DNA from: Olivibacter jilunii
GTDB taxonomy: Bacteria; Bacteroidota; Bacteroidia; Sphingobacteriales; Sphingobacteriaceae
Assembly (NCBI RefSeq): GCF_900607235.1
Contig: NZ_LR027848.1
Location: forward strand, 1,229,241-1,293,240
Length of the DNA: 64,000 nt
Direction: 5' to 3'
This document shows positions 16,003 to 30,238 of this stretch, one piece after another (position 1 is the first letter of the stretch; each line of letters begins with the position of its first letter). The translations under genes and the position numbers were made by a program. Under the pieces are notes generated by a model. The model saw only the letters and a list, made by a program, of their open reading frames with translations, did not search any database and was not told the origin of the DNA.

Positions 16003-16512
16003 TCATTTACTTCCTTTGTCATTGCCATCTCGTTCATATAAAGCCTTAAAAACTTCACTTGGTTTTTTGTCCAAAGCCAACGCAAGCAGATATATTTCAA
16101 AAGCATAAGGGCGTCTATCGTCACTCTTAACTAGCTTATTAAATCGAGTGCGTTCTATCCCAGTTTTATTCGCGATATCTCTTTGTTCTATCGTGAATTG
16201 CTCTATATAATTACCAAGTCTTGACAGCTTGCTACTATTCCCAATTTCTTTTTTATAGTCAGCTACCTTTAGGTCTCCGAAAATTACTTTGCAAGCGTCG
16301 TCAATGCTTCTGTCTATTTTTGTGATGATGTGAAAAAATTCATCGGCATACAATAGCGACGTTGCTTTAGTGCAAAGTGTATCCAGTCGTTCCAACGTAA
16401 TCTGTTCATCGGCTAAAATCATTTCCTCAAAGCCGTCAACGCGTAATAAATATTGTCCTAAAGGAGTTAATTTCTTTTCTTTTTTATTGTTATTATCTTG
16501 TCTGTCAAACAT
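16003..16512 (-). CDS. Putative HTH (XRE-like) regulator of accessory block
   Basis: A 169-residue protein whose C-terminal third (about 103-158) resembles a Cro/CI-type helix-turn-helix: IEQFTIEQRDIANKTGIERTRFNKLVKSDDRRPYAFEIYLLALALDKKPSEVF. The N-terminal half (GQYLLRVDGFEEMILADEQITLERLDTLCTK) is charged and helical, with no family recognised. The DNA-binding call rests on the HTH-like pattern alone. It is the likely terminal gene of a leftward transcript starting near 17.13 kb that first crosses a long hairpin and an XRE relic. Confidence 0.55.
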   Translation of the reverse strand: MFDRQDNNNKKEKKLTPLGQYLLRVDGFEEMILADEQITLERLDTLCTKATSLLYADEFFHIITKIDRSIDDACKVIFGDLKVADYKKEIGNSSKLSRLGNYIEQFTIEQRDIANKTGIERTRFNKLVKSDDRRPYAFEIYLLALALDKKPSEVFKALYERDGNDKGSK

Positions 16513-16654: not shown

Positions 16655-16781
16655 ATTTCGATTGGTACCCGAAGAGGAGGCGGTGAGATGAAAGCCTTTT
16701 TCCTTTCAAAAAGCTTATCTTTGCTTTTTGTGCAGGGAAGGGCCTCGCCGCTAATTGCTTTCGGGTACCAAACTTCGAAAT
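16655..16781. other. 127-nt long hairpin (nested inverted repeats), candidate structured RNA or transposon-like element
   Basis: Several helices nest collinearly. The outer stem is ATTTCGA plus TTGGTACCCGAA (16655-16673) against TTCGGGTACCAA (16760-16771) and TCGAAAT (16775-16781). The middle stem is GCGGTGAG (16680-16687) against CTCGCCGC (16744-16751), one G-U pair. The inner stem is CAAAAAGC (16707-16714) against GCTTTTTG (16723-16730). A further wobble-rich helix between middle and inner stems is possible. There is no open frame inside. No known class was recognised; no reverse transcriptase lies nearby, which argues against a retron. Confidence 0.6.
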
Positions 16782-16839: not shown

Positions 16840-16985
16840 ACCTAACGAAAGATGAAAACGAGTTGTTCAAATAACCTAAAAAACCAACTAACTAAAACTC
16901 TCGCAAGTTCGGTTTGCGAAGTGGTTCCTGCACATGCAATGCCGCTTCAAAATCCTATTATCCTTATCATTACAGCTCCAACCTA
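16840..16985 (-). pseudogene. Remnant of XRE-family regulator, copy B
   Basis: Homologous to the decayed XRE gene at 5416-5640. Leftward reading gives TSQTELARVL in one frame, the usual start of a Cro/CI helix-turn-helix, but it falls apart within about 15 codons (LVSWFFRLFEQL, stop). Nucleotide similarity to copy A covers this stretch and the AT-rich leader up to about 17140. No functional product is expected. Confidence 0.4.
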
Positions 16986-17131
16986 ATCTCGTAAATCCTA
17001 TTCTTATTTTCGACTTGATGAGCTATTTATATAGCCCAAATGGGTGGATTATATTTGAAATTTTTTAACAAAAACACCTAAATCTAATTTAAAAAAATGA
17101 CGGTTTACGTTCATAGGGGATACCTATGTCT

Positions 17132-17163
17132 CAAATATAGGCTTTATAGGCATACGTGCCAAA
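17132..17163 (-). promoter_or_regulatory. Leftward Bacteroidota-type promoter
   Basis: On the minus strand TTTG (17160-17163) is followed after 20 bp by TATATTTG (17132-17139), an exact match to TTTG-N19/20-TAnnTTTG. Transcription would run left over the XRE relic and the long hairpin toward the HTH gene at 16003-16512. The copy at 5808-5815 keeps TATATTTG but has a weaker -33 box, and an IS inserted about 30 bp upstream of it. Just inside the transcript CATAGG/CCTATG forms a small hairpin. Confidence 0.55.
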
Positions 17164-17270
17164 TGATTTTGCTCACATTTGCACGTTTTATTAAAAATTC
17201 AACGGTTTTTAAATTATGTAGAAATTGTTTGATTAAAACAGAGCCTATTGAAAATTCCAAATCTGATCGG

Positions 17271-17606
17271 CGACTTGCAGAAAAAGAGCTGCAGATTACA
17301 AGAAAACTGGCGCAACTGGTAGGAAAAGGGGGGCGACCTGCATTCGACGAAAGGCGAGATGCAACGAAAGGTGTGCCAAATGCATTCAATAAGGGGCGAA
17401 ATGCGGGTACGGAGGGGCGAAATACAATCTGGCAGGGTCAAAATGCATTTAACGGTGAGCGAAATGCAAAGAAGTTTAGGCGAAATGCATTTGCTAAATG
17501 GCGAGATGCAACGAATGCTATGCCAAAAGCAGTCAATAGAGGGCGAAATGCAGGTACGGAGGGGCAAAATACAATTTGGCGGGGACGAAATACAATATTC
17601 AGGGAC
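17271..17606. repeat. 21-bp repeat array 1 (about 16 units)
   Basis: Units built on GGCGAAATGCA recur exactly every 21 bp with cores at 17271, 17292, 17313, 17334 and so on to 17586; the next core slips by one base. Individual units differ in their last 10-12 bp, and the order of unit types repeats after seven units: the unit at 17355 (CGAGATGCAACGAA) returns at 17502, 147 bp later, and its successors follow in the same order. The stretch is open in several frames on both strands because 21 is a multiple of three and units lack stops. Confidence 0.85.
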
Positions 17607-17680
17607 GAACGACGTTTTTGGGCGGGCGCGCAAAAGCCTTCTTTAGTGATGAATGATGAATTATTAGTGATGAATATTCC

Positions 17681-17825
17681 TTGTACCTTTTCCCGCAAAA
17701 GGTACCCAAAGCTCCTGGCTGCAAACCTTCTTTCAAAGTTTGTGCCGTTACTTAGCTTCTACTACCAGAAGCTTTGGAGGCCAGTTATTCGCTGTCGAGC
17801 AGATATTCCTTCGAGACCTTTCCAT
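17681..17825. repeat. 145-bp repeat R2, copy a
   Basis: Near-identical to 18179-18323 (same length). It begins with a 9-bp hairpin, GTACCTTTT/AAAAGGTAC, followed by a stretch resembling the start of the 385-bp repeat at 32581 (CCGCAAAAG ... CAAAG ... CTGGCTG). It separates repeat arrays 1 and 2, so it belongs to the amplified structure. The small differences between copies show the duplication is not recent. Confidence 0.8.
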
Positions 17826-17861
17826 AGCATCTACAGGGAAGGCGTCAATTTAAGGTTGGGA

Positions 17862-18038
17862 CGAACTGCAGAAAAACTGTTGCAGAATGCAAGAAAACTG
17901 CCTCAACTGGTAGGGAAATGGGTGCGATCTGCATTCGACGAAAGGCGAGATGCAGCGAATGCTATGCCAAAAGCAGTCAATAGAGGGCGAAATGCAGGTA
18001 CGGAGGGGCAAAATACAATTTGGCGGGGACAAAATGCA
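17862..18038. repeat. 21-bp repeat array 2 (9 units)
   Basis: Cores at 17862, 17883, 17904, 17925, 17946, 17967, 17988, 18009 and 18030, all 21 bp apart. The first four units match the first four of array 1 in order, followed by the same unit types as at 17502-17586. After 18038 the regular phase is lost; GGGACGAA variants recur with irregular spacing up to about 18170. Confidence 0.85.
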
Positions 18039-18178
18039 TCTTTATGCTTTTCGCTTTCAACCACTTTATTCTGTGCTTTTCAGTATTTGTTGGGACGAAC
18101 TGCAATATTCAGGGACGAACAACCTATTTGTAGTACTGTTTTGGGACGAACGACCGTTAATAGGGACGAATTTTCTTT

Positions 18179-18323
18179 TTGTACCTTTTTCCGCAAAAGG
18201 TACGCAAAACTCCTGGCTGCAAATCTTCTTTCAAAGGTAGTGCCGTTACTTAGCTTCTACTACCCGAAGCTTTGGAGGCCAGTTATTAGCTGTCGAGCAG
18301 ATGTTCCTTCGAGACCTTGCCAT
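18179..18323. repeat. 145-bp repeat R2, copy b
   Basis: Second copy of the repeat at 17681-17825, again with the GTACCTTTT-type hairpin at its left end and ending in TTCGAGACCTT. It lies between array 2 with its variant units and array 3. No gene is apparent within it, although the frame leading to the SusC gene stays open through it. Confidence 0.8.
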
Positions 18324-18365
18324 GAAGGGTTCGGCAAATCGAGGTGGTATGTGACGTGCGTTAGG

Positions 18366-18584
18366 CGAGATGCAGGTAAATTATGGCGAAATGCAAGGAA
18401 ATTAAGGCGAAATGCATTTGCTAAATGGCGAGATGCAACGAAAGGTATGCCAAATGCAGTCAATAGGGGGCGAAATGCAGGTACGGAGGGGCGAAATACA
18501 ATTTGGCAGGGGCGAAATGCATTTAATGGTGAGCGAAATGCAAATAAAATATGGCGAAATGCAAAGAGATTTAGGCGAAATGCA
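18366..18584. repeat. 21-bp repeat array 3 (11 units)
   Basis: Eleven units in exact 21-bp phase (18366, 18387, 18408 ... 18576), mostly GGCGAAATGCA cores, with the same sequence of unit types as array 1 (for instance the units at 18408-18513). It ends about 50 bp before the signal peptide of the SusC-like protein, so it forms its upstream region. Confidence 0.85.
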
Positions 18585-18632
18585 TCGGCTTTAACGCAAG
18601 GTGCTATACCTTCGAGAGATAGCTTTTTTGGC

Positions 18633-21600
18633 TTGTTGTGTAAGTGGGCCTCGCATACCCTTAAACCCTATACCATATACCTTACAGCCTTAAACGTCTT
18701 GTTCTGTGTTTGTTTGGCACACGCCCGGCAGTCCTCCTCCCCGGAGGCTGCCCACGGCGTGGCTTTGCAGAGTGATTATTTTGTAACGGGAAGAGTCATG
18801 GCGGGAGGTACAGATGAGCCACTTACGGGGGCAACCGTGCGAATTAAAGGGAGCACTATTTCTGTACGCGCTGATGCGAAAGGTTTATTTAGAATAAGTG
18901 CTAAAGAGGGGATAGGTGTACTTGTCATTAGCTTTCTCGGTTATAGAACACAAGAAGTGGATTTTCAAAGAGGCCAAGCGGAAGGCTTGACGATTCGTTT
19001 GGAACCCAATGATAATCAGTTGGATGAGGTAGAGGTGAGCACGGGTTATCAAACCTTACCCAAAGAACGTGCTACGGGCAGTTTTGTACAGGTTGATAAC
19101 GAATTGTTCAATCGGAGTGTTAGCACCGACGTTATCAGCCGACTGAAGGGCGTGACACCATCGCTGGCCTTTGATGAGCGAGGGGGAGGGGAGCCAAAGT
19201 TGAGTGTACGAGGCAGGAGCACCATCTTCGCAAATGATCAACCGTTGATTGTACTGGATAATTTTCCTTACGAAGGCGATATCAATAGTATCAATCCCAA
19301 TGATATTGCAAGCATCAGTATTCTACGTGATGCGGCTGCCGCTTCTATTTGGGGTGTTCGAGCCGCTAACGGCGTTATTGTGATTACAACAAAAAATGGC
19401 TCGGGCGAGACACCTTTGTCCATCGGAGTCAATACGAACCTGACCGTGGGCAACAGACCTAACCTATATTATCAACCTAGAATGAGTTCAGGCGATTTTA
19501 TTGAGGTGGAACGTATGCTATTTGAAAATGGATATTTTGATAACGACATCAACAATGTAACGAGCTATCCACCTTTAAGTCCTGTAATTGAACTGTTGAA
19601 TGCCGCACGAAATGGAACGGTTGCCGTGGCTGAGTCGGAAGCCTTAATACAGCAGCTCAAACAGTATGACGTAAGAGATGATTTAAAGAATTATTTCTAC
19701 CGCAAATCAGTAAAACAGCAATACGCGCTTAATTTTAACGGAGGCGGTAAAAGTTACAGTTATTATTATAGCGCCGGTTTTGATCATAACAAGGATAACC
19801 TGGTGGGGAACGGTCTTCGGAGGATAAGCCTGAGTACACGCCAAAATGTGCGGCCTATACAGAATCTTCAACTTTCTTTTGGACTCGATTATATCTTGAG
19901 CGATAATCCGGCTAACACTGCATTAAATACGATCCGTTTGGGATCTCGTAATATTTATCCATATGCCCGCTTAAGTGGAAACAATGGAGAAGCACTACCC
20001 ATTAGCAATAAATATCGGACAGATTTTATACGTGAAAGTAGTTCGATCGGATTGCTGGATTGGGGTTACCGCCCCTTGGATGAAAGAAACCTTACAAAGC
20101 GAACAGCCGACGCAAACAATGTAAGGGTTCAAACGGGCATACGGTACAGAATATGGGAGGGTTTAAATGCCGAAGTACGTTATCAATACCAACAGCAAAG
20201 GGGTGACACTGAAAATCTTTATCATCCGGATGCTTTTTACACGCGCGATCTGATCAATCGATATACAACTTTTGAGAATGGGACACTTATAAGAAATATA
20301 CCTGAAGGTAGTATCTTGAATAGGTCACAGAATAAATTAAACGCCCATAATGGAAGGATACAACTGAATTACACGCAAACATGGGAAGATCATGCTGTAG
20401 CGGCCATCGCAGGATTTGAAGTAAGGGAAATAAAAACTGCGGGCAGTACCTTCGGCTTTTATGGTTATGATGAGGCGAACGGCTCCTCACGTCCGGTCAA
20501 TTACAATACTTATTATCGACTTTATCCTTCAGGTTATGCACTCATTCCCGATCCGAGAAATGTATCGGGAACGATTGATCGGTTCCGATCTTATTATTCC
20601 AATGTGTCATACAGTTACAAAAACCGTTATACTTTATCAGCCAGTGGGCGGATCGACCAGTCCAATCTGTTTGGTGTAGCGGCCAACTTGAAAGCGGTGC
20701 CGCTATGGAGCTTGGGCGGGAAGTGGGTGTTGAGCGATGAGCCCTTTTATAAGTGGGCGGCACTGCCTTCACTCACGCTGAAAGCAACCTATGGATATAA
20801 TGGCAATCTGGACAATTCCGTGACGGCCTTTACGACGGCCCGATTGGCGAATGCAAGCTTTACGGGAAAACCTGCCGCTTTTATCATTTCACCGCCCAAT
20901 CCAAATTTGAAATGGGAACGCGTTTCCATGTTGAACCTGGGAGTGGAATTTGCAAGTAAAAATGAGCGTATTTCGGGTAGTTTCGAGTATTTCAAAAAGC
21001 GGGCGTCGGATCTGATAGGCGAGGGGCCACTGGGTGCTACCACAGGGTTAACAAGCTTTCGCGGAAATGTGGCAGATATGATAGGCAAGGGTTTTGACCT
21101 TACACTCAGCACCGCCAACATTCGCAAAAAGTTAAGCTGGCGAAGTACTTTACTGTTCAGCTATGCCATCGACGAAATTACGGCTTACAAACGTACAGCG
21201 AGTAGTTTGAGTGCTTATTTCCCTGATCAGAGTATCAATCGCGAGAGCTTATTTTATACACCGGTAGAGGGCAAGCCACTGTTCAGTATCTACAGCTACA
21301 GATGGGCAGGCCTCGATGATGGCAATGGAAATCCCTTAGGTTATCTGAACGGAGTGCCGAGCGATAATTACACAGCAATCAGTTCCATGAACAATACTCC
21401 TTTAGATAGCCTGATCTACCACGGAAGGGCAATAGCGCCATTTTTCGGCTCATTGCGAAATGATTTCACATATAAGCAGTGGAGTTTGTCAATCAACATT
21501 TCCTACAGTTTCGGGCATTATTTCAGGAAGCCGACAATCAGCTACGGTGATCTGTACAGAAACTACAGTTCGCTCCATGCCGACTATAATAAGCGATGGC

Positions 21601-21911
21601 AAAAGCCAGGTGATGAATTGTTTACTACGGTGCCATCTATGGTGTTTCTGGATATAAATGGTCGTGACGCTTTCTACGTGAACAGTGAAGTCAACGTAAA
21701 GCGGGCGGATCTGATCCGTTTACAGGATGTACGTTTGGCCTACGATTTTGCTATCAAACAACGAAAAGGATTTATTAAAGCTTTACAGGTGTACGCTTTT
21801 GCTAATAACATAGGCCTGTTGTGGACGGCAAATGGAGAAGGGATCGATCCGGATTTTCCTACAATGCCAATACCCTTTGCCCTGAGTTTTGGCGCACAGC
21901 TCACACTTTAA
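18633..21911 (+). CDS. SusC-like TonB-dependent outer-membrane transporter
   Basis: A SusC/RagA-type transporter. Signal peptide (KPYTIYLTALNVLFCVCLAHA), a carboxypeptidase-regulatory-like domain (VTGRVMAGGTDEPLTGATVR ... FLGYRTQEV), plug domain (LDEVEVSTGYQTLPKERATG, VRGRSTIFANDQPLIVLDNF, SILRDAAAASIWGVRAANGV) and a beta-barrel ending FALSFGAQLTL. The frame is open back to an ATG at 17097, but that would add about 510 Arg/Asn-rich residues from the 21-bp repeats in front of the signal peptide, and the ATG is absent from the homologous copy near 5.77 kb. I therefore place the start at TTG 18633 (or 18636). The SusD partner follows 12 bp downstream. Substrate unknown. Confidence 0.8.
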   Translation: MLCKWASHTLKPYTIYLTALNVLFCVCLAHARQSSSPEAAHGVALQSDYFVTGRVMAGGTDEPLTGATVRIKGSTISVRADAKGLFRISAKEGIGVLVISFLGYRTQEVDFQRGQAEGLTIRLEPNDNQLDEVEVSTGYQTLPKERATGSFVQVDNELFNRSVSTDVISRLKGVTPSLAFDERGGGEPKLSVRGRSTIFANDQPLIVLDNFPYEGDINSINPNDIASISILRDAAAASIWGVRAANGVIVITTKNGSGETPLSIGVNTNLTVGNRPNLYYQPRMSSGDFIEVERMLFENGYFDNDINNVTSYPPLSPVIELLNAARNGTVAVAESEALIQQLKQYDVRDDLKNYFYRKSVKQQYALNFNGGGKSYSYYYSAGFDHNKDNLVGNGLRRISLSTRQNVRPIQNLQLSFGLDYILSDNPANTALNTIRLGSRNIYPYARLSGNNGEALPISNKYRTDFIRESSSIGLLDWGYRPLDERNLTKRTADANNVRVQTGIRYRIWEGLNAEVRYQYQQQRGDTENLYHPDAFYTRDLINRYTTFENGTLIRNIPEGSILNRSQNKLNAHNGRIQLNYTQTWEDHAVAAIAGFEVREIKTAGSTFGFYGYDEANGSSRPVNYNTYYRLYPSGYALIPDPRNVSGTIDRFRSYYSNVSYSYKNRYTLSASGRIDQSNLFGVAANLKAVPLWSLGGKWVLSDEPFYKWAALPSLTLKATYGYNGNLDNSVTAFTTARLANASFTGKPAAFIISPPNPNLKWERVSMLNLGVEFASKNERISGSFEYFKKRASDLIGEGPLGATTGLTSFRGNVADMIGKGFDLTLSTANIRKKLSWRSTLLFSYAIDEITAYKRTASSLSAYFPDQSINRESLFYTPVEGKPLFSIYSYRWAGLDDGNGNPLGYLNGVPSDNYTAISSMNNTPLDSLIYHGRAIAPFFGSLRNDFTYKQWSLSINISYSFGHYFRKPTISYGDLYRNYSSLHADYNKRWQKPGDELFTTVPSMVFLDINGRDAFYVNSEVNVKRADLIRLQDVRLAYDFAIKQRKGFIKALQVYAFANNIGLLWTANGEGIDPDFPTMPIPFALSFGAQLTL

Positions 21912-21923
21912 AAATTGAATGCA

Positions 21924-23291
21924 ATGATGAATAGATATATTTTTTCTCTACTCCTCCTGATGTCTGTCCTAATGCAGGGATGCAAAAAAGATTGGTTGGA
22001 AGAAAAAAGAGATCTCTCCGTAGTTGTCCCCACTTCGATCGGAGATATGAGAAGACTGATGAACGAAACCAACACCTTTCGAAATGACTATCGGATGTTG
22101 GCTGTTTTTGCAGGTGATGAATATTATGTTACTGATAATACGTGGAATACCATGACCTGGCCGATTTCGCGGCTTAGCTATATCTGGGAAAGTGATATTT
22201 ACGGCGGTGAAACGAATGTTGCACTCTGGAATGGTCCGTATACACAAATATTCTATACAAACATCGTATTGGAAGGCCTTGACAAAATTACTGCCAAACC
22301 TAATGAACTGGAAGAATACAATGATATAAAAGGTAGTGCACTGTTTTTTAGGTCGCGCGCTTTTTATGCGTTGGTAACTCAGTTTGCTTTGCCTTATATA
22401 AATGGTGAAAATAGTAATGCATTGGGAATTCCGCTCAAGTTGAAATCTGATATAAACGAACCTGTTCATAGAAGCAATCTGGCTGAATCTTATGGGCAGA
22501 TCACCAATGATCTGAAAGCAGCGGTGCAACTATTGCGCATCGCGCCGGAGATAAAAACAGACGCCTCGAAACCAGCGGCTATGGGGTTGCTGGCCAGAGT
22601 TTATCTGGCCATGGCAGATTATGAGGCAGCTTATCATTACGCTGATTCTTGTCTAGCGCTTTACAATAGTCTTCTGGATTTTAACGAGCTGGACCTTTCT
22701 CCCCGATATCCTTTTGCTCTCTATAATGCAGAAGTGATTTTTGAGTCTGCTTTACAGCCTTATTCTTCTTTTGTAGGGGCGCCAAATGGCCGAGTGGATA
22801 GTAATCTTCTCGTCAAGTACGACATTGGTGATTTACGTCGCGAGGCTTTCTTTGTGAAGAACAGCGATGGATCTTATAGTTTCAGAGGCGTTTACAACGG
22901 AGCTACGGGTTTATTCGGAGGTATCAGTGTAAACGAAGTCCTGTTGATAAGAGCGGAAACGGCGGCGCGTTTGGGCAGAACAGAGGTGGCGCTTGCTGAT
23001 CTGAACAGCTTGCTTGAAAAGAGGTACCGAACCGGCTTCTACCGTCCCATACAACAAAACGATACAGATTCGCTGATCGATCTGATTCTGATGGAAAGAC
23101 GAAAGGAACTTCTTTTTAGGGGCTTACGGTGGGAGGATTTGAAACGATTGAACAAGGAACCGGGTAGAGAAACCACGTTGAAGCGGACTGTAAACGGCCA
23201 GCCGTATGTGCTGGAACCGGAAGGCAAAAGATATGTGTTCAAAATCCCCGAATATGTCTTAATCGAAACCGGTATTGAACAAAATGACTGA
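21924..23291 (+). CDS. SusD/RagB-like outer-membrane lipoprotein
   Basis: A SusD-family ligand-binding lipoprotein of 455 residues. Signal and lipobox FSLLLLMSVLMQGCKKDW, N-terminal SusD-like helices (DMRRLMNETNTFRNDYRM), the central TPR-like region (AMGLLARVYLAMADYEAAYHYADSCL) and the C-terminal SusD domain (EVLLIRAETAARLGRTEVALADLN, LIDLILMERRKELLFRGLRWEDLKRL). It should cap the preceding SusC-like barrel. Start at the first ATG (21924) instead of the TTG at 21915. The next gene overlaps its last codons. Confidence 0.9.
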   Translation: MMNRYIFSLLLLMSVLMQGCKKDWLEEKRDLSVVVPTSIGDMRRLMNETNTFRNDYRMLAVFAGDEYYVTDNTWNTMTWPISRLSYIWESDIYGGETNVALWNGPYTQIFYTNIVLEGLDKITAKPNELEEYNDIKGSALFFRSRAFYALVTQFALPYINGENSNALGIPLKLKSDINEPVHRSNLAESYGQITNDLKAAVQLLRIAPEIKTDASKPAAMGLLARVYLAMADYEAAYHYADSCLALYNSLLDFNELDLSPRYPFALYNAEVIFESALQPYSSFVGAPNGRVDSNLLVKYDIGDLRREAFFVKNSDGSYSFRGVYNGATGLFGGISVNEVLLIRAETAARLGRTEVALADLNSLLEKRYRTGFYRPIQQNDTDSLIDLILMERRKELLFRGLRWEDLKRLNKEPGRETTLKRTVNGQPYVLEPEGKRYVFKIPEYVLIETGIEQND

Positions 23292-24624
23292 TTTAAATTT
23301 TATGACCATGTACCTATACAGATGGAGATATAGTATCGTATTACTAGGGTTTATTTGGCAAGCGGCAACTTCGCGGCTACTGTTCGCTCAACAAAAATCC
23401 ATCGGCGACAGCGCGCCTGAACACATCTTGAATAATGTAGTTAATTATGATAGCGGCTCATTGCAATTATCCGATTTTCGCGGAAAGATTGTATTGTTGG
23501 ACTTTTGGTCAATTGGCTGTCCTAGTTGTATTGCTGCTTTTCCAAAGCTGGATTCGCTGCAACGCAAATTTGATAGACAATTACAGATCGTTTTGGTAAC
23601 GTCTAACAAGCTGGATGCAGTAAAGGCCTATATGAAGGCAAGCAAATATCAATTACCGGATTTACCCTTAATCTACGCTGATACTGTCTTGAAGCAGGCC
23701 TTCCCCTATAAGATGGTGCCTATGCAGGTATGGATTGACGAGAAGGGCAGGGTACGTGCTATTACTAATCCTTGGTATGCTACGGAGACAATTGTAAAGC
23801 GGATGTTGGCAGGAGATTGGCCGAACATGGAAGTACGTCGTGACAATCTGCAGTACGATAGAAGTAAGCTGTTAGGTGAACAGAACCTATTGGATTTGGT
23901 GAATTACACTTCTTCATTTGCTAGATTTATACCTGAAATTCCGGGCCATATGATTCTGGAAAAGGATACGGCAAAAAAAGTGAGCCTGAAAGCTTTTTAC
24001 AATAAATCCGTCTTGAACCTTCTCCAGATCGCTTATAGTCAAAATACATTTCCTAATCCCAGTCCGTATCGAAACATCAAACGAATACGGTTTGAGGGGG
24101 TAGATACAGCGGACTGGTTTAGCCAGAGAGCCGATGAACATTACGAAGAATGGCGGAGCCGTAACCTTTTTTCTTATGAGCTGAAGATTCCATTGGAAAG
24201 GGATAGTTTATGGTTCGACTTTATGCAAGCAGATCTAAATCGATTTCTTGCCTTGGAGTATGGTGTTACCGCTAAATTGGAAAGAGAAGAGGTTACGGGA
24301 ATGATGCTGGTAAAATTAAGGGAAGGTGTAGAAAAGGATAAGTTTGACTATGCCGTTCGACGGCGACGGGAAGTGAAGGGTCAACCATTTAGAACTTACC
24401 TTAATCCTGAAGAGCTGACATTCTTTTTAGAACGGAACTATGCAGGTGACGATATCTTTTTCCTAAATGATACGGGCATCAAAAGTTATTTTCCTATTGT
24501 GTTGAAACAAGATATTCCGGATTTGAACCATGTGAATGAAGCGTTGGCGCCTTACGGTCTTTATTTAAAAAGAGGAAAATTTGAATTGGAGCGGTTGGTT
24601 ATAGCTAAGGTAGTAAATCACTAA
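23284..24624 (+). CDS. TlpA-like thioredoxin-domain protein with DUF3738-like C-terminus
   Basis: An exported protein of about 446 residues: signal segment (YSIVLLGFIWQAATSRLLFAQQ), then a redoxin domain (IGDSAPEHIL, KIVLLDFWSIGCPSCIAAFPKL; CPSC at about residues 79-82) with the cis-Pro region YKMVPMQVWID. The second half is unrelated to thioredoxin and ends FELERLVIAKVVNH, resembling the DUF3738/TIGR03435 ending (LVIDH). It overlaps SusD by 8 bp, so it is translated with the transporter pair. Possible role: thiol redox chemistry on the imported ligand or the transport complex. A second start at 23302 is also possible. Confidence 0.8.
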   Translation: MTDLNFMTMYLYRWRYSIVLLGFIWQAATSRLLFAQQKSIGDSAPEHILNNVVNYDSGSLQLSDFRGKIVLLDFWSIGCPSCIAAFPKLDSLQRKFDRQLQIVLVTSNKLDAVKAYMKASKYQLPDLPLIYADTVLKQAFPYKMVPMQVWIDEKGRVRAITNPWYATETIVKRMLAGDWPNMEVRRDNLQYDRSKLLGEQNLLDLVNYTSSFARFIPEIPGHMILEKDTAKKVSLKAFYNKSVLNLLQIAYSQNTFPNPSPYRNIKRIRFEGVDTADWFSQRADEHYEEWRSRNLFSYELKIPLERDSLWFDFMQADLNRFLALEYGVTAKLEREEVTGMMLVKLREGVEKDKFDYAVRRRREVKGQPFRTYLNPEELTFFLERNYAGDDIFFLNDTGIKSYFPIVLKQDIPDLNHVNEALAPYGLYLKRGKFELERLVIAKVVNH

Positions 24625-28701: not shown

Positions 28702-28800
28702 TTTTGATTACCCTTTGATTACCCTTTGCTTACCTTTTGTTTACCTTATAGTTACCCAAACTATACCCTTCCTTTACCTTGCGCTTACCCTTTGTTTACC
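28702..28800. repeat. 11-bp iteron-like tandem array (9 units)
   Basis: Nine units of CTTTGNTTACC in exact 11-bp phase; ACC ends each unit at 28712, 28723, 28734, 28745, 28756, 28767, 28778, 28789 and 28800. Units 1-4 and 9 are closest to consensus; unit 6 (CAAACTATACC) is the most diverged. The period is one helical turn, so each unit shows the same DNA face, as in iterons or stacked binding sites. No open frame covers it. The surrounding 28406-29033 has other small hairpins (CGTTGCTTA/TAAGCAACG near 28460) but no gene. Confidence 0.8.
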
Positions 28801-29675: not shown

Positions 29676-29714
29676 GGTGAAATCAGGTAGGGCGGCTATT
29701 GCCGCCTTGCTTTT

Positions 29715-29770
29715 AACCAATAACGAGTAACGAACAACGAGTAACCAATAACGAACAACGAGTAACGATT
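29715..29770. repeat. 7-bp tandem repeat ending at a start codon
   Basis: Eight perfect-phase heptamers of the form AACNNNN: AACCAAT, AACGAGT, AACGAAC, AACGAGT, AACCAAT, AACGAAC, AACGAGT, AACGATT, then the ATG at 29771. A GGCGGC/GCCGCC hairpin (near 29691-29706) precedes it. The repeat forms the whole leader of the holin-like gene. The same heptamer family appears reversed at 30134-30168 and inside the endolysin gene. Confidence 0.85.
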
Positions 29771-30124: not shown

Positions 30125-30133
30125 GAGAGTTGG

Positions 30134-30168
30134 TTGTTAGTTGTTAGTTGCCCGTTGTTAGTTGTTGT
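30134..30168. repeat. 7-bp tandem repeat, reverse orientation
   Basis: Five heptamers in phase: TTGTTAG, TTGTTAG, TTGCCCG, TTGTTAG, TTGTTGT. They are the reverse-strand form of the AACNNNN repeats upstream of the holin-like gene. They begin 10 bp after its stop, so this gene is bracketed by heptamer runs of opposite orientation. Confidence 0.75.
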
Positions 30169-30238
30169 TTGCCGATGTGGGTATTGAGGAGTGAAGGTAA
30201 TAGTCGTGGCATTAAGGTTGACAAGTGTTATTAGACAG

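Follow-up and report, generated by a model that had tools for sequence, protein, structure and literature searches.

Why should a SusC gene carry arrays of short repeats between its start codon and its predicted signal peptide? The locus lies in a stretch of 64,000 nucleotides from Olivibacter jilunii (the window, whose first letter is position 1). A preliminary description reported about 36 repeat units in strict 21-bp register upstream of the gene, and suggested either that every core faces the same side of the DNA helix, to suit a DNA-binding or nucleoid protein, or that the repeats are translated as a heptapeptide. The repeats, their place and the two R2 copies that separate the arrays all stood up to analysis; the unit count, the register, the higher-order period and the position relative to the gene did not.

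The last of these is the most consequential. A single frame is open from 17097 to 21911 (1604 codons) and is recognisable as SusC/RagA from residue 563, and the arrays are therefore inside the coding frame and not upstream of it. They sit between a conserved start and a predicted signal peptide (codons 522–543), and the frame continues from them into SusC. The features of the locus are as follows.

16003..16512, minus strand: divergent gene of 169 amino acids, possibly a helix-turn-helix regulator
16662..16771, no strand assigned: inverted repeat with perfect 12-nt arms (16662–16673 and 16760–16771)
16716–16723, inside the inverted repeat: promoter-like TATCTTTG, found by eye
16852..16986, plus strand: short open reading frame of 44 amino acids, MKTSCSNN...LIITAPT
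17097..17154, plus strand: conserved start module ATG..., MTVYVHRGYLCLKYRLY
17097..18701, plus strand: extension of SusC before the signal peptide, 535 codons up to the core, with content that varies between loci
17332..17594, plus strand: repeat array 1 (xRNA heptads), from core positions
17681..17825, plus strand: R2 copy 1, from repeat comparison
17860..18038, plus strand: repeat array 2, from core positions
18179..18323, plus strand: R2 copy 2, which begins 498 nt on from the first copy, a multiple of 3
18364..18584, plus strand: repeat array 3, from core positions
18660..18725, plus strand: predicted signal peptide LKPYTIYLTALNVLFCVCLAHA, with signal and cleavage site judged by eye
18699..18718, plus strand: invariant 20-nt core TTGTTCTGTGTTTGTTTGGC
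18717..18763, plus strand: hairpin of the structured element, from covariation and folding (z −3.94)
18726..21911, plus strand: mature SusC/RagA TonB-dependent transporter (TIGR04056, 3e-145; Pfam plug and barrel)
21915..23291, plus strand: SusD-like protein (SusD-like_3, 4.9e-29)
23275..24624, plus strand: TlpA/ResA-like thioredoxin-fold protein (AhpC-TSA, 8.5e-11)

The transporter has CarboxypepD-like, plug and barrel domains, it scores 485.9 bits against the TIGR04056 cut-off of 368.25, and its SusD partner adjoins it. The ATG at 17097 is supported by the start module, which shares 91% identity across 58 nt with its counterpart at a related locus in genome G052 (S_3340k) and differs from it at five sites, none of them a third codon position. 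The extension has no stops in frame; the remaining forward frames have 17 and 37. The octamer TATCTTTG resembles the promoter motif of Bacteroidota. The 169-aa divergent gene has no match in Pfam (E 0.001) or NCBIfam (E 0.01); by eye, the C-terminal part of its product resembles the C-terminal parts encoded by divergent genes at two of the related loci described below (S_2534k and D_1541k).

The repeats themselves are far above chance. With up to one mismatch, GGCGAAATGCA occurs 21 times in the window against 1.84 expected and a maximum of 7 in 100 shuffles, and 19 of these matches fall in 17353–18584. The two R2 copies are 145 nt long and 93% identical. Between the ATG and the signal core, 30 cores were counted when up to two mismatches were allowed, some of them weak and isolated, in place of the roughly 36 units proposed. 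Of 29 successive core spacings, 26 are multiples of 21, but the arrays do not share one strict register, because the core spacing on passing from array 1 into array 2 is 276 bp, or 13 × 21 + 3. Similarly, the 147-bp step taken as a higher-order period was seen once, the others in that family being 483 bp and 444 bp, of which 444 is no multiple of 21. The window has further short tandem repeats at 28703–28757, 29714–29768 and 30133–30173, whose units measure 7 to 22 bp.

The preliminary description overlooked that 18 loci have a variable slot at this place, which in the window happens to be filled by the array. A search with the signal-peptide stretch gave six strong places in the same genome (8 matches at E up to 10) and matches in four of 399 genomes of the family, all from one genus. 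A profile built from 21 such stretches, used in a protein search that is blind to codon choice, gave 27 matches at E up to 0.05 in the five Olivibacter genomes: 21 coding copies, three apparently non-coding, one decayed tandem copy (D_182k), one relic and one weak match (G037). Copies outside genes and decayed copies are left out of the coding counts. Complete loci number 18, in four Olivibacter genomes: six in the window's own genome (O_) and four each in XZL3 (G015; X_), G052 (S_) and O. domesticus DSM 18733 (G063; D_). A further locus, X_C49, is cut by a contig end and is excluded from the frame count. All 18 have the same organisation, namely a conserved start, an extension of 38–535 codons and a conserved signal-peptide stretch, followed by SusC or TlpA; the start modules fall into a few classes within the genus. 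A survey of SusC genes in the window's own genome scored 56 of 206 candidates, and none of the counts given here is taken from it.

Several other features recur around these operons. Short open reading frames of 17–87 amino acids ending in APE, APT, SPE, SPV or KPE lie upstream of the start at 15 of the 18 loci, among the two longest short frames per locus, and one more of this type was seen by eye at O_C4; they could encode leader or secreted peptides. At the four loci tested (window 16662–16771; L153:3291–3412; L157:5181–5301; L084:2712–2829), inverted repeats 86–100 nt apart flank promoter-like TAnnTTTG motifs identified by eye, an arrangement for which an invertible promoter or an operator may be considered. 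Divergent genes near the related operons look, mostly by eye, like helix-turn-helix regulators of different kinds, and two of them (L084, L087) match regulator families below the cut-off.

Is the extension translated? From the ATG to the core all 18 frames are open, with no stop in 2900 codons, while the other five frames of the same extensions contain 208, 191, 160, 83 and 192 stops; a Markov model predicts a mean of 159 and, over 300 runs, a minimum of 122. The two longest extensions, those of the window (O_win) and D_C13, are rich in repeats, and therefore their codons are not independent trials. The frame is also kept when sequence is exchanged. Of 109 local DNA matches between different extensions, 102 agree in both strand and frame; many of the 109 pair the same conserved ends, and with the end modules left out the figure is 23 of 27. 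The 21-bp repeats of the window recur in the extensions of X_C110 and D_C13, where, together with those of the window, all 47 cores share one codon frame. In the window they read as xRNA in the SusC frame, which fits the heptapeptide option. In D_C13 a 240-bp unit comprising repeats and signal peptide is present three times in tandem, in frame.

Some observations count against reading the whole extension as a leader. SusC proteins normally have short leaders, and a predicted signal peptide behind 535 residues is unusual. Two in-frame TTG codons in the window, at 18633 and 18636 (22–23 codons before the core), could start a SusC of normal length, in which case the long upstream frame would be translated separately or in a coupled fashion; likewise, some ATG, GTG or TTG is present within 45 codons before the core at 15 of the 18 loci. 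Such an internal start would, however, leave the open frame in 18 of 18 loci and the in-frame exchange without a reason unless the coupling were strict. A close internal start is also unavailable at O_C2b, S_3647k and D_C13, because these have no in-frame ATG, GTG or TTG within 45 codons before the core. An ATG lies within that distance at only 8 of 18 loci, the positions are not shared between loci, and in the window no in-frame ATG occurs between the last array and the signal peptide. We therefore regard an internal start as improbable, and translation from the conserved ATG as the better account of the frame.

If the frame matters, does the amino acid sequence? The extensions are under little amino-acid constraint. 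In nine chosen segment pairs, pooled pN/pS is 0.87 over 433 codon pairs, and changes are spread over the three codon positions as 70, 77 and 61. The picture is similar for the repeats of the window itself, and in neither set is selection on the amino acids evident. Individual segments range from 0.21 (X_C110/X_C91, 27 codons) to 1.48, with two further low values of 0.53 and 0.60. R2 and other pieces of the extension resemble short repeats elsewhere in the same genome, the relatives of R2 being partial only; there are 13 such repeat places that belong neither to these loci nor to the window array, and at none of them is a match covered by a stop-to-stop frame of more than 118 codons. We conclude that the slot accumulates whatever leaves the frame open.

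A different explanation would be that the extension is a functional basic domain, for instance one binding nucleic acids or a membrane surface, that is selected for composition and not for sequence. All 18 loci have an extension with a net positive charge, between +0.03 and +0.26 per residue, and the pN/pS values of 0.21–0.60 in three of the nine segments are in its favour. The charge is not used here as evidence of selection, because most other frames of the same DNA are positive too; moreover the pooled pN/pS is close to 1 and no Pfam domain is found in the window protein before residue 563 (E up to 0.001). We consider such a domain unlikely.

The distribution of the array also bears on the proposal that it acts as DNA. 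In the window's own genome the exact pattern for a pair of repeats has five matches, all at the window locus. With two mismatches it is found in five of the 399 genomes, three of them Olivibacter, which are taken as real arrays; the matches in the other two (G130 and G269) look like chance, and backward controls also matched two genomes. The array is thus not a satellite or transposon, in the sense that it does not recur at many unrelated places. The preliminary description would have counted as refuting its view an array that is missing from close relatives and keeps no phase: the array is present in three of five Olivibacter genomes, and its 21-bp phase is not conserved between them. A spacing of 21 bp amounts to two helical turns, and the cores are regular within each array, as would be expected if a protein were to bind along one face of the DNA. 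Against this, array 2 is 3 bp out of helical phase with array 1, the two related extensions show internal shifts of 9, 12 or 18 (mod 21), all of these shifts being multiples of 3, and 15 of the 18 extensions contain no core at up to two mismatches. The DNA-face option is accordingly very hard to sustain, and it was the translation option that gained support. It is worth adding that the 21-bp array is not confined to the extensions. A fourth array, on contig C44 of XZL3, lies outside any complete extension and has six cores in two frames, with no signal-peptide stretch or SusC following it within the locus examined. This loss of frame is what is expected if only the extension selects for it.

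The borders of the slot are quite different from its content. At the 3′ border there is a conserved hairpin, also overlooked earlier, which follows the 20-nt core. Among the aligned copies, which were collected by exact pattern, TTGTTCTGTGTTTGTTTGGC is identical in 24 of 24, including the three apparently non-coding ones. The protein search gives the same result independently of codon choice: the LFCVCLA part of the predicted signal peptide is the same in all 21 coding copies, and the core codons TTG TTC TGT GTT TGT TTG are identical in 21 of 21. In the mature parts, by comparison, 55.6% of the codons for identical residues differ on average (50 pairs, limited to those whose lengths differ by no more than 600 nt and whose identity exceeds 35%). 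In the hairpin alignment 98.1% of cells pair. Five of 13 tested pairs have changed on both sides (in one cell each), which none of 500 shuffles reached, and RNAalifold finds changes on both sides in 8 of 17 pairs, three of these in 8 to 11 sequences; the number of further pair types, the weakest of the four covariation measures, was reached by 9 of 500 shuffles. Folding of five copies gave z-scores of −3.6 to −5.3.

The core and hairpin also occur outside such genes, at O_C5x, X_C75x and D_C7x. Read in the signal-peptide frame, these copies have open stretches of 38 to 77 codons; O_C5x lies under a stop-to-stop frame of 135 codons in another phase, and for this reason the copies are called only apparently non-coding. 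X_C75x lies under stop-to-stop frames of 77 and 85 codons. At a fourth place, in G052 (L207:1510), a variant with one inserted base is followed by a different hairpin and then by TTTTTT, and has the look of a small RNA with a terminator. On contig C10 of O. domesticus, at 1269473 (1269490 in the protein search), the core is changed and the hairpin lost; this is read as a relic, and thus copies do decay. At about 182 kb on the same contig, the locus D_182k (L158) has a decayed, frame-shifted module of start, extension and core immediately ahead of its present module, which gives the impression that the latter was inserted as a new one.

Confident matches to the element are confined to Olivibacter among the 399 family genomes. 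A covariance model finds it in four of the five Olivibacter genomes; with stricter filters, 392 of the other 394 genomes give nothing and two give weak matches (G265, E 0.008; G372, E 0.003), in which a conserved core followed by a hairpin was not seen and which are attributed to chance. The exact coding pattern was found in 23 stretches in a collection of 84,980 species, a scan that may omit records of the window's own genome; 10 are from Olivibacter and the other 13 are read as chance. Rfam gave no match in the window at gathering scores. Pairing between the core and the 300 nt before the ATG is unsupported, because the mean z of the duplex energy over the 18 loci is +0.17 (100 shuffles each).

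The core and hairpin may act as an RNA regulator, an attenuator or a recombination site. Recombination at the 3′ border would be consistent with the way in which start classes and downstream genes are combined differently between loci, and with the older module at D_182k. An attenuation-like role is the strongest rival to the explanation given below, and could hold together with it. Here the ribosome translating the extension would have to pass the hairpin, and its passage would set expression, possibly tuned by length or repeats. Such a regulatory leader would fit a conserved, stable hairpin at the end of extensions that vary in length and keep their frame open with little constraint on amino acids, and one copy of the element, outside such a gene in G052, does have the run of T. 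In the coding copies the hairpin is followed by a short run of T at best, and since a long one is lacking, an intrinsic terminator is not evident in them; also, a leader peptide is separate from its gene, and the extension continues into it in frame. We regard the regulatory leader as possible, but on the doubtful side.

On the basis of these observations, we hypothesise that the arrays are the filling of an insertion-tolerant, translated leader in a special class of Olivibacter SusC and TlpA genes, a leader that is removed with the signal peptide and whose borders are conserved; we hold this explanation with fair confidence. Translation would start at the conserved ATG at 17097 and run through the extension to the conserved signal-peptide stretch. 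The mature transporter would be exported, and the extension would stay on the cytosolic side and be removed together with the signal peptide, as would be expected from the way in which signal peptides work. The content of the slot would then be almost free provided that the frame stays open, and could therefore gather repeats of intergenic origin, segments gained by exchange and tandem duplications; the 21-bp arrays and R2 would be material of this kind. The borders would be constrained: the start module is conserved as nucleotides and the 3′ border even more so, from which we infer that they act as an RNA (or DNA) element. At the 3′ border it is probably an RNA that controls the expression of these operons.

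One may go further, more tentatively. The core and hairpin might form a genus-specific element that is translated as the signal peptide in a class of SusC/TlpA operons and is also present as free non-coding transcripts that share a partner with the mRNAs, preceded by a translated slot of foreign repeats that gives each operon its own leader length. This is put forward as a conjecture that we would not yet call likely.

Four known systems resemble parts of this arrangement. Rickettsia palindromic elements, of about 150 bp, are found in frame in many unrelated protein-coding genes (PMC10969869). The likeness lies in short repeats held in frame inside a coding gene, as they are here; in Olivibacter, in contrast, the filling is varied, it occupies one slot before the signal peptide, and the slot has conserved border modules. 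Nor is a single element spread through many unrelated genes, the exact array pattern being present in the window's own genome at the window locus only. Autotransporter signal sequences of more than 40 residues also place a positively charged sequence before a Sec-type signal peptide, but have a common two-domain organisation in 79 of 90 cases (PMC2805444), whereas the Olivibacter extensions run from 38 to 535 codons with unconserved content. The FopS family of small RNAs in Bacteroides thetaiotaomicron, which binds susC mRNAs by complementarity (PMC11697453), is similar in having a conserved unpaired stretch followed by a hairpin and in its link to susC mRNAs; in Olivibacter the element has one and the same sequence and orientation in the mRNAs and in the other copies. 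Finally, the pil1 leader of Streptococcus gallolyticus encodes a leader peptide, has GCAGA repeats and ends in a premature terminator (PMC3894217), and shares with the present loci a repeat-driven change of a translated leader before a stem-loop. It is a separate leader, unlike the in-frame fusion in Olivibacter, where the units are of 21 bp and no terminator is evident in the coding copies. As far as the available parts of these sources go, none of the four combines these features. A search by title or abstract of the open-access literature, outside which most subscription journals lie, found no description of such extensions.

If the hypothesis is true, a gene for a secreted protein tolerates up to 535 fast-changing, repeat-derived codons before its signal peptide. 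Such a gene would be a natural trial of the limits of the export machinery and a cradle in which new coding sequence can arise. In Bacteroides, small RNAs have been reported to control susC mRNAs (PMC11697453), and a signal-peptide stretch whose conservation is at the nucleotide level, and which turns up again in apparently non-coding copies, would, if true, be a new kind of link between an RNA element and protein sorting in Bacteroidota.
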